From positions 1,612,001 through 1,676,000 of the forward strand of contig NZ_CP101456.1 of assembly GCF_024362485.1 (NCBI RefSeq): a DNA stretch of 64,000 bases. Reading direction: 5' to 3'. Position numbers and translations under genes: made by a program. This DNA comes from Natronobeatus ordinarius (GTDB lineage Archaea > Halobacteriota > Halobacteria > Halobacteriales > Natrialbaceae). Below the pieces are notes generated by a model that was not told the origin of the DNA, ran no database searches, and worked only from the letters and a program-made list of their open reading frames with translations. Shown here piece after piece: positions 46,285 to 50,921 of the stretch. Position 1 is the stretch's first letter, and each line of letters starts with the position of its first letter.

Positions 46285-46440
46285 TAGCTGTCGGCACGCA
46301 GTCACGGGTTAAAAAGTCACTTTTTTCGTGATACGCTTGCACTCCCCGCCCCGGGGCGTCGTTACGCTGGTTCTGAGCCTGTGTCGCCGGCGTTTCACTC
46401 ATTCCCCAGCCGATCGAGCGTTGGCCGGCGGGCCGGGACG

Positions 46441-46995
46441 TTACGGCGGCCCGGCGTCGTCCGGCGGCCCAGCGTCGTCGGGCGGCCCAGCGTCGTCGGG
46501 CGGCCCAGCGTTCCCGGGTGGTCCGGCGTCTCCGGGTGGTCCGGCGTCGTCCGACGGGCCGGCGTCGTCCGGCGGGCCAGCGTCGTCCGGTGGGCCAGCG
46601 CCGTCCGGCGGGCCAGGGCTCTCTGGCGGGTCCGTCTCGTCTGCCGAGCCGTCGTCGGCCGGTTCGTTGAGGGTCACGGGCGGCTCCAGCCCTTCGGGAC
46701 CGTCCGGGCCGTCTACCGCGACGGAGGCGTCGCCGGACGTGTCGTTCGCCGTCGCGAGGACGGACGGCTCTGGCTCGGCCGAGACACCCCACGCATCGTC
46801 GGCAACGTCTCCGTCGTCATCTGTCACCGGTGAGTCGTCCGAGTCGTTCGATTCGTCGTCGACCGCCTCGGCCGCCGGGGACGTCGACCCCACGTCGGGT
46901 CCGACGACCGCGACCACCGCACCGAACGTCACGAGCACGACCAGCACGAGCGTGAGCAGTACGCCCGTCGACGCCTCCGGATCTTCGCGGCGCAT
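46441..46995 (-). CDS. membrane-anchored protein with acidic linker and hexapeptide-repeat tail
   Basis: A 184-residue protein. Residues 10-32 are a single transmembrane helix (GVLLTLVLVVLVTFGAVVAV). A Ser/Asp-rich linker follows (DDESNDSDDSPVTDDDGD). The last 59 residues are about ten copies of a hexapeptide with consensus AGPPDD. The helix near the N terminus suggests the tail faces outward. The repeat is low in complexity and may be a surface spacer. I know no family for it. It is divergent from the S9 peptidase gene. Confidence 0.7.
   Translation of the reverse strand: MRREDPEASTGVLLTLVLVVLVTFGAVVAVVGPDVGSTSPAAEAVDDESNDSDDSPVTDDDGDVADDAWGVSAEPEPSVLATANDTSGDASVAVDGPDGPEGLEPPVTLNEPADDGSADETDPPESPGPPDGAGPPDDAGPPDDAGPSDDAGPPGDAGPPGNAGPPDDAGPPDDAGPPDDAGPP
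46444..46620 (-). repeat. 18-base tandem repeat encoding AGPPDD
   Basis: About ten tandem 18-base units encode the proline-rich tail of the overlapping gene. Copies differ by single changes (PPDG, PSDD, PPGD, PPGN variants), which suggests expansion by slippage or recombination, followed by drift. Confidence 0.85.
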
Positions 46996-47109
46996 CCGTG
47001 CTCGACCGTCGACCGTCGAGCCGCTTTGTTAAGCACCGCACACAGGCCTCCTCGAGCGAGTCATCCGGAACCCGAAACGGTTACCGGCCGGAGTCGATAC
47101 GGGTACGGC

Positions 47110-49664: not shown

Positions 49665-49895
49665 TTAGTCCATCGCGATGTACGTTTTCGTGTCCGCCAC
49701 GCCGTCGAGCACCTGGATCTCCGAGGAGGCCGTTTTGAGGATCTCGTACACTTCAGCCGCGTCGACCTCGGCGATGATGTCGTAGTTGCCGGCGACGATG
49801 TGGGCGTCCTCGACTCGCTCGAGTTCCCGGATCTTCGCGAGGAGGCCTTCCGACTTTCCGGCGGCAGTTTTCACCATGATGAACGCGTGAACCAT
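49665..49895 (-). CDS. stand-alone RAM (Lrp/AsnC ligand-binding) protein
   Basis: A 76-residue protein equal to the ligand-binding RAM domain of Lrp/AsnC regulators, without a DNA-binding domain. It reads MVHAFIMVKTAAGKSEGLLA, then VEDAHIVAGNYDIIAEVDA, and ends GVADTKTYIAMD. The frame can start at 49925, but the paralog at 50691 starts MVTAFVMVK, so ATG 49895 is preferred. It is divergent from the trkA-like gene, whose other neighbour is that paralog. Such proteins form rings that bind amino acids. Confidence 0.85.
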   Translation of the reverse strand: MVHAFIMVKTAAGKSEGLLAKIRELERVEDAHIVAGNYDIIAEVDAAEVYEILKTASSEIQVLDGVADTKTYIAMD

Positions 49896-49989
49896 CTGTC
49901 TCGGAGGTGTGATACTCTCTGGCATGACTAAAGCCTTTGCCCGGGCATCGGGGCAAACTTATTGACGGGTGGGGGCGTACCGCAGTACC

Positions 49990-50691
49990 ATGCGGTTCGT
50001 TATCATTGGCGCTGGACGAGTCGGCCTGCGTGCGGCCCGCGTCCTTCGTGAGGAGGGCCACGAGGTGACGCTGATCGAGCGCGACGAGCCGATGGTTCGC
50101 CGTGCCCGAGGCGAGGAGTTCTCAGTCGTCGATGGCGACGGCTCCCGCGAGGCGGTGCTCGAGGAAGCGGGCATCGACGAGGCCGACGCCGTCGGCGCGT
50201 TGACGAGCGATCTGAACGCCAACTTCGCGGCGTGCATGATCGGGAACCACTACGGCTGTCGAACCGTCATGCGCATCGACGACGACTACCGCGAAGAGAT
50301 CTACCGCAAGTACGCCGCGGAAGTCGACGAGGTGATCTACCCCGAACGCCTCGGTGCGATGGGTGCGAAAAATGCCCTCCTCGGGGGAACGATCCGCGCG
50401 ATCGCGGACGTCGCCCAGCACCTCCAGATCGTCGAACTCACGATCACCGACGAGGCCCCCGTCCGCGGGTACACGATGGGCGAACTGGAACTGCCCGCCG
50501 ACGCGACCCTCCTCGCGTTCGGCAAGGAAAACGGCGTCCTCGAGATTCCGACCGAGGACGAATCGCTCGAGACGGGCGACCGGCTGGTGGTGCTGGCGGA
50601 CTTCGACGTGCTGAGCGACGTCCGCCAGCTCCTGGTCGGGGAGACCCCGCTCGAGTCGGCGGCGAACGCGGCACACGGAGGTATCAACTGA
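49990..50691 (+). CDS. trkA: TrkA-type RCK protein (K+ transport regulator)
   Basis: A 233-residue protein with an RCK_N Rossmann domain (MRFVIIGAGRVGLRAARVLR, acidic NAD-binding end in VTLIERDEP) and an RCK_C domain (about 145-220, VELTITDEAPVRGYTMGELE...LETGDRLVVLADFD). TrkA/KtrA proteins bind NAD(H) or ATP and gate a membrane K+ channel. No channel subunit is adjacent. ATG 49990 has a TATA-like aacttattg about 24-33 bases upstream. Its stop shares a base with the next gene, a RAM-domain protein (TGATG), so they are co-translated. Confidence 0.9.
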   Translation: MRFVIIGAGRVGLRAARVLREEGHEVTLIERDEPMVRRARGEEFSVVDGDGSREAVLEEAGIDEADAVGALTSDLNANFAACMIGNHYGCRTVMRIDDDYREEIYRKYAAEVDEVIYPERLGAMGAKNALLGGTIRAIADVAQHLQIVELTITDEAPVRGYTMGELELPADATLLAFGKENGVLEIPTEDESLETGDRLVVLADFDVLSDVRQLLVGETPLESAANAAHGGIN

Positions 50692-50921
50692 TGGTCACGG
50701 CATTCGTCATGGTGAAAGCGAACACGGGCGAGGCGGATCGACTCAGAGAGCAAATCGAGGCGATCGAGGGCGTCGAGTCGGCGCACATCGTCGCTGGCGA
50801 CGTCGACATCATCGCGAAAGCGCAGGTCGACGCACCGGCGGCGGTGAAAGAGATCGCCGCGAACCAGATCCAGGGGATCGAGGGCGTCGAGGACACGCAA
50901 ACGTATATGGCGATGGACTGA
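50691..50921 (+). CDS. stand-alone RAM (Lrp/AsnC ligand-binding) protein, paralog
   Basis: A 76-residue RAM-domain protein reading MVTAFVMVKANTGEADRLRE, VESAHIVAGDVDIIAKAQVD and ending GVEDTQTYMAMD. It clearly resembles the product at 49665-49895, with the same length and the same end. Its start codon overlaps the trkA stop by one base. Coupling to a K+ channel regulator suggests it senses a small molecule for that regulator, but this is inference. Confidence 0.88.
   Translation: MVTAFVMVKANTGEADRLREQIEAIEGVESAHIVAGDVDIIAKAQVDAPAAVKEIAANQIQGIEGVEDTQTYMAMD

Follow-up and report, generated by a model that had tools for sequence, protein, structure and literature searches.

What might two small ligand-binding proteins be doing on either side of a potassium-channel regulator in an archaeon that lives by the salt-in strategy? 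Salt-in archaea must hold molar potassium, and RAM domains, the ligand-binding part of Lrp/AsnC regulators, usually sense amino acids, so that a locus joining the two would raise the possibility of a small-molecule input to potassium uptake. Such a locus lies at positions 49665-50921 of the window, the whole 64,000-nucleotide stretch of DNA analysed here from the 4.2 Mb, two-contig genome of Natronobeatus ordinarius. A sequence-only reading had described a TrkA-type RCK gene with a divergent RAM gene (RAM1) on one side and a translationally coupled RAM gene (RAM2) on the other, both encoding 76 residues, and this three-gene layout is confirmed at these coordinates.

Anatomy of the trio

RCK (49990..50691, plus strand) encodes a single chain of 233 residues in which Pfam finds TrkA_N (93.7 bits) and TrkA_C (41 bits), both over cut-off. 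Its nucleotide motif reads G7-x-G9-xx-G12 followed by E30 (GxGxxG-17-E), and its P118-E119, which aligns to the PE of a Ktr protein at the KtrA cation site, is invariant in 25 of 25 aligned rows, one paralog lacking RAM neighbours included. A GxGxxG followed after 17-18 residues by E/D, together with the PE glutamate of the intra-dimer cation site, marks nucleotide-dependent, cation-requiring RCK proteins of the KtrA type (PMC6957272), and by its motifs RCK would accordingly be classed as a KtrA-like, nucleotide-dependent gating protein and subunit of a gating ring. Its relatives in the PDB are TrkA, TM1088B, M. jannaschii TrkA/KtrA and bacterial KtrA/KtrC, the best matches being 4j9u, 3l4b and KtrA. 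The AlphaFold2 model has a pLDDT of 84, with a tail that is disordered from residue 219 and also variable in sequence; in Foldseek comparisons the whole model superposes poorly (TM about 0.47 to TrkA/KtrA and 0.6 to MthK), the matches being clearly RCK proteins.

RAM1 (49665..49895, minus strand) and RAM2 (50691..50921, plus strand) match Pfam PF01037 with 44.5 and 49.9 bits, respectively, against a cut-off of 25. The AsnC_trans_reg domain spans residues 6-75 of the 76, and neither protein has the N-terminal HTH of an Lrp/AsnC transcription regulator, each being the RAM domain alone. The two are true paralogs with 46% identity. An alternative 86-residue start of RAM1 at 49925 was dropped, as it is not conserved and homologs begin with MVHAF, here at 49895. 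The ATG of RAM2 and the stop codon of RCK have one base in common, at 50691, and through this one-base overlap RAM2 is predicted to be translationally coupled to RCK. The AlphaFold2 model of RAM2 (pLDDT 93) has the order E-H-E-E-H-E and lies nearest to 2djw, 2zbc and 2e1a in the PDB (TM 0.86-0.92), a modelled RAM fold. The endings TKTYIAMD and TQTYMAMD, to which the sequence-only reading had drawn attention, belong to the final strand found in RAM domains generally and are not a special signature, since E. coli Lrp carries DTRTYVVME at that place. Elsewhere in the window, an open frame at 46328-47032 with a tandem GGPASS-type repeat overlaps other frames and is possibly merely a GC-rich repeat.

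Several known systems resemble parts of this locus. RCK shares TrkA_N and TrkA_C, GxGxxG-17-E and the PE motif with the KtrA/TrkA gating-ring proteins of Bacillus KtrAB and Vibrio TrkHA, but unlike in those systems no pore gene adjoins it and RAM genes bracket it instead; the single copy of TrkH in the genome lies at 2746689, about 1.1 Mb from the trio. The TM1088A/TM1088B TrkA ring of Thermotoga is a potassium gating ring split into more than one small protein (PMC4380455), although both subunits are RCK pieces and neither is a RAM. Closer to RAM1 and RAM2 are P. horikoshii DM1 (2e1a), S. tokodaii STS042 (2zbc) and T. thermophilus TTHA0845 (2djw), which are HTH-less RAM folds of 75-76 residues and have been discussed as amino-acid-responsive partners of Lrp proteins, whereas the haloarchaeal RAMs described here are linked to potassium RCK genes. 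Haloarchaeal Trh2 also joins an Lrp-family protein with RCK_C, as an Lrp-TrkA_C fusion (PMC4236453), but it is one polypeptide with an HTH, while the trio consists of separate, HTH-less proteins and a complete RCK with its nucleotide site.

Conservation of the layout and of a putative operator

Searches with RCK, RAM2 and RAM1 in 117 Halobacteriales genomes, with linkage computed from coordinates, located 91 RCK orthologs, and the layout is thus far from peculiar to this genome. RAM2 lies directly downstream of RCK on the same strand in 81 of the 91, at a gap of -5 to 98 bp, and was never seen at a distance from RCK where a genome has both. RAM1 is found within 1 kb upstream of RCK in at least 66 of the 91 (62 divergent and four codirectional among the matches listed, the latter forming the group of L041, L043, L044 and L048) and 1-12 kb away in at least six more; in at least five genomes it is far off or on another contig, and still conserved. 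RAM1 orthologs occur in at least about 80 of the 117 genomes. Most haloarchaeal families carry the trio genes, with species of Natrialba, Natronococcus, Natronorubrum, Haloterrigena, Natrinema, Halobiforma, Halopiger and Halovivax among the carriers. Two RAM-only proteins have been reported in Hfx. mediterranei, WP_004059676.1 and WP_004059678.1 (PMC8229911), and the gap of one between their accessions suggests, without proving it, that the same trio is present there. The ten RCK orthologs with neither RAM among the matches listed (nine from one genus, g14, and one from another, g38) indicate that RCK is able to work alone, and for at least six genomes of a third genus (g13) all three genes are missing from the matches listed.

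As a control for slow REARRANGEMENT, neighbours within six genes were compared at 21 loci from 14 families. RCK and RAM2 stand side by side at all 21, the next most frequent neighbour being a gene family (c2) present at 15, followed by thymidylate kinase at 12, SDR at 11, PDH-E1-like at 10 and CetZ-like at 9, with neighbours named by eye. The trio thus outlives its surroundings, and its layout is far from chance. That it is ordinary conserved synteny with no functional link is for this reason hardly credible: thymidylate kinase, CetZ-like and SDR genes also stay near in about half of the loci, but none of the other neighbours exceeds 15 of 21, no case of RCK and RAM2 lying apart in a genome that keeps both was seen among the 91, and another RAM lineage accompanies different potassium genes, as described below.

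The opposite situation is met in one genus (g20; genomes G012 and G039), where the divergent RAM1-RAM2 pair is kept (L135:3768-4312 and L136:3607-4176) and RCK is cleanly gone from between them, with no RCK found elsewhere in either genome at E <= 1e-45. Both RAMs of these two genomes sit on long branches of the tree, and the Asp of the GDVD motif of RAM2 (D39), otherwise invariant, has become E in both. This divergence is consistent with relaxed constraint after the loss of RCK, and the two loci amount to a natural RCK-loss experiment.

The region between RAM1 and RCK holds further conserved elements. An imperfect inverted repeat, GTGTGATACTCTCTGGCATGAC (49907..49928), stands between the RAM1 start and a TATA/BRE-like putative RAM1 promoter, GGGCAAAGGCTTTAGTC as read on the minus strand (49926..49942). 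When 65 distinct RAM1-RCK intergenic regions are aligned, the repeat follows the consensus GTGTGGTACnCTnTnnCACGAC, plainly recognisable in about 55 of them and weak or absent in the others; the promoter element is conserved in the same 65. The putative RCK promoter, a BRE/TATA-like element, GGGGCAAACTTATTGA (49950..49965, plus strand), is also conserved between loci, and since its TATA-like box lies about 28 nt before the ATG, the RCK mRNA is probably leaderless. The repeat appears to belong to RAM1: at two loci of one family (L137 and L138) it has moved along with a displaced RAM1, in L137 as a perfect GTGTGGT-n5-ACCACAC, and where RCK has no RAM1 upstream the repeat is absent too. At the displaced RAM1 of three other loci (L139, L140 and L150) it is missing or unrecognisable. 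No exact match other than the window site exists in the genome, two further matches at two mismatches look like chance, and a genome-wide regulon of the element was accordingly rejected; nor was any convincing match found near the TrkA/TrkH operons considered below. As the element is unique, absent above RAM1-less RCK genes and without a counterpart at those operons, it looks like a dedicated RAM1 operator, through which RAM1 would regulate itself, and not like part of a potassium regulon.

A third RAM lineage beside TrkA and TrkH

An independent connection between RAM proteins and potassium genes comes from a third RAM paralog, RAM3, found at 19 loci of one family (f17; E <= 2.4e-29). At 16 of the 19 its neighbours include TrkA/TrkH potassium-uptake genes, the exceptions being G373, G371 and G102, and at 15 it is on the same strand as TrkH and within 2.3 kb of it. 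Five of these gaps are below 300 bp, namely about 60 bp in G108, G369, G366 and G363 and about 280 bp in G074; the distance is 0.6 kb in G066 and 1.4-2.3 kb in the remainder of the 15, while in G041 RAM3 lies 67 bp from TrkA. The order is TrkA (with tandem RCK)-TrkH-RAM3 in L142 and TrkA-RAM3-TrkH in L192, and Pfam confirms TrkA_N/TrkA_C, TrkH and AsnC_trans_reg at both. With two to five TrkH copies per 3.5-7 Mb in these genomes, chance proximity would be expected at under about 1% per locus, although the loci, being of common ancestry, are not independent events. The simplest reading is that RAM3 is a partner of TrkA/TrkH and would carry a metabolite signal into potassium flux.

Some features of the surroundings were also observed. 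The TrkA-TrkH-RAM3 operon of L142 (1233-6680) faces a convergent gene that by eye resembles an amino-acid permease extended by a UspA-like tail. In several genomes of the family (L144-L146), genes of 216-220 residues (cluster c8) that by eye encode a bat-like HTH regulator stand between TrkH and RAM3.

The tree of RAM proteins, built on 76 columns only and weakly resolved, supports the RAM2 clade (98/95); RAM3 groups weakly with RAM1, not with RAM2, and this RAM1+RAM3 grouping is not supported (82/46). All three paralogs retain the GxxD turn and the TxT strand, as would be expected if they still bind a ligand, and these positions hint at ligand-dependent assembly of dimers into octamers.

The sequence-only reading had held that a link of RAM proteins to unrelated genes would count against the proposal. 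Among 295 genomes searched across the phylum, such links do occur outside the haloarchaea. Non-halophilic members have a RAM gene within the trp operon, in the order TrpD-RAM-PRAI (L172:579-2560 and L173:2982-4918), which suggests an amino-acid-sensing role there, and in another family (f21) a RAM gene directly precedes one for a 219-residue ACT + DUF5612 protein (L176:4169-5058, with similar loci L177, L179, L180, L182, L183, L186 and L189). These 219-residue genes had looked RCK-sized and were considered as a further RCK link, which their ACT + DUF5612 content rules out. Stand-alone RAM genes elsewhere in the phylum have yet other neighbours, and a Chloroflexi relative (L105) places its RAM gene after one for an iron-sulfur-type protein. 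Extra haloarchaeal RAM paralogs without RCK neighbours also exist (L141, L143, L147-L149, L190 and L191). The objection therefore applies outside the haloarchaea and to some extra paralogs within them, but not to RAM1, RAM2 and RAM3. Since the non-haloarchaeal RAMs examined lie by unrelated genes, the potassium link is a haloarchaeal specialisation; the RAM family as a whole is not a potassium family, and only these three haloarchaeal lineages are predicted to be so.

How the RAMs may act on potassium transport

The conservation of the layout and the independent linkage of RAM3 to TrkA/TrkH argue for a connection between RAM proteins and potassium, and in haloarchaea potassium balance is probably coupled to the level of amino acids. 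Of the small-molecule input to potassium uptake that the sequence-only reading had proposed, the RAM-potassium link is supported by the neighbourhoods of RCK and RAM3; with no pore gene beside it, RCK may act on potassium uptake or on another transporter. The reading preferred here, to which close to an even chance is given, is that RAM1 and RAM2 serve as dedicated small-molecule sensors of the KtrA-like RCK and so tune a potassium transporter. RAM2 would be made with RCK in a single translational unit; RAM1 would be expressed from the opposing promoter, controlled by an operator of its own, which would allow the RAM1:RAM2 ratio and hence the sensor complex to be adjusted. RAM dimers or octamers would bind an amino acid or a related metabolite between dimers, and the ligand-bound RAMs might dock on the RCK ring or alter its assembly, whereby a potassium transporter encoded elsewhere, with the distant TrkH as the candidate, would be tuned to the amino-acid pool. 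Amino-acid binding where two dimers meet is established for stand-alone RAMs, which also assemble into fourfold octamers and hetero-oligomers (PMC2995911), and the fusion of RAM with TrkA_C in haloarchaeal Trh2 (PMC4236453) speaks for this reading as well. Against it stand the ten RCK orthologs with neither RAM, the genus that keeps the RAM pair but not RCK, and the distance of the trio from TrkH. In this model we infer that the RAMs touch RCK, which ligand they bind, which transporter is the target and in which direction it is tuned. Its more specific form, in which the two RAMs hetero-oligomerise on the KtrA-like ring and whether the transporter is open is set by an amino acid, for example glutamate or aspartate acting as a counter-ion signal, is offered tentatively, as a possibility well short of even.

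The RAMs may instead act on transcription, forming hetero-oligomers with a full-length Lrp-type regulator that tune the RAM1 operator and potassium-related promoters, with RCK as an output gene. P. horikoshii DM1 joins the full-length Lrp-type FL11 in just such hetero-octamers (PMC2995911), the genome encodes eight other RAM-bearing proteins, and a half-site of the repeat stands just upstream of the RCK BRE in five of 59 intergenic regions, against 0.25 expected. The operator that travels with RAM1 and the RAM-Lrp hetero-octamers suit a transcriptional role as well as they suit the sensor model. The uniqueness of the element and its absence from RAM1-less RCK genes and from the RAM3 operons speak against a wider regulon, however, and the one-base coupling of RAM2 to RCK, their invariant adjacency and the position of RAM3 between TrkA and TrkH favour stoichiometric subunits over a loose regulon, so that a transcriptional role, though to be taken seriously, is considered unlikely. 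Somewhat more doubtful is an arrangement of parallel sensors, RCK for potassium flux and the RAMs as a metabolite buffer or for another partner such as an amino-acid permease, separate and merely co-expressed under one stress. RCK exists without RAMs and RAMs without RCK, RAM1 persists away from RCK, and the family of the permease-like gene of L142 adjoins RAM3 in L144 as well; such independence fits poorly with RAM2 being always next to RCK where both exist, and with RAM3 being linked to a different RCK protein plus its pore. It is very improbable that RCK_C itself senses the signal, for example c-di-AMP as in bacterial KtrA/TrkA, with the RAMs as ligand-less assembly factors: c-di-AMP affects osmoregulation in Haloferax (PMC6741144) and is reported to be bound by a bacterial TrkA (PMC12453120), but the GxxD turn and TxT strand are retained in every one of the three RAM paralogs.

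That no system of this form had been described, as the sequence-only reading put it, agrees with a literature search that turned up no account of a RAM-RCK locus; since this search extended neither to subscription journals nor to databases of gene neighbourhoods, the novelty is provisional. The AsnC-like regulator CsmR reported from Haloferax in 2026 was considered as a match and rejected, being an unrelated HTH protein that regulates motility. To our knowledge, little is known of how Trk-type uptake is controlled in salt-in archaea, and the link between an Lrp ligand domain and an RCK protein offers a specific candidate, open to experiment, for how osmotic balance could be coupled to the state of nitrogen or amino acids. 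Since each gene is small and most haloarchaeal families have all of them, as a rule side by side, deletion and purification of a complex should be straightforward. Stand-alone RAM proteins gain through this locus a candidate role outside transcription and, if the model is true, the hetero-oligomer switch would put the Lrp ligand domain to work post-translationally, in a manner that has not been described before.
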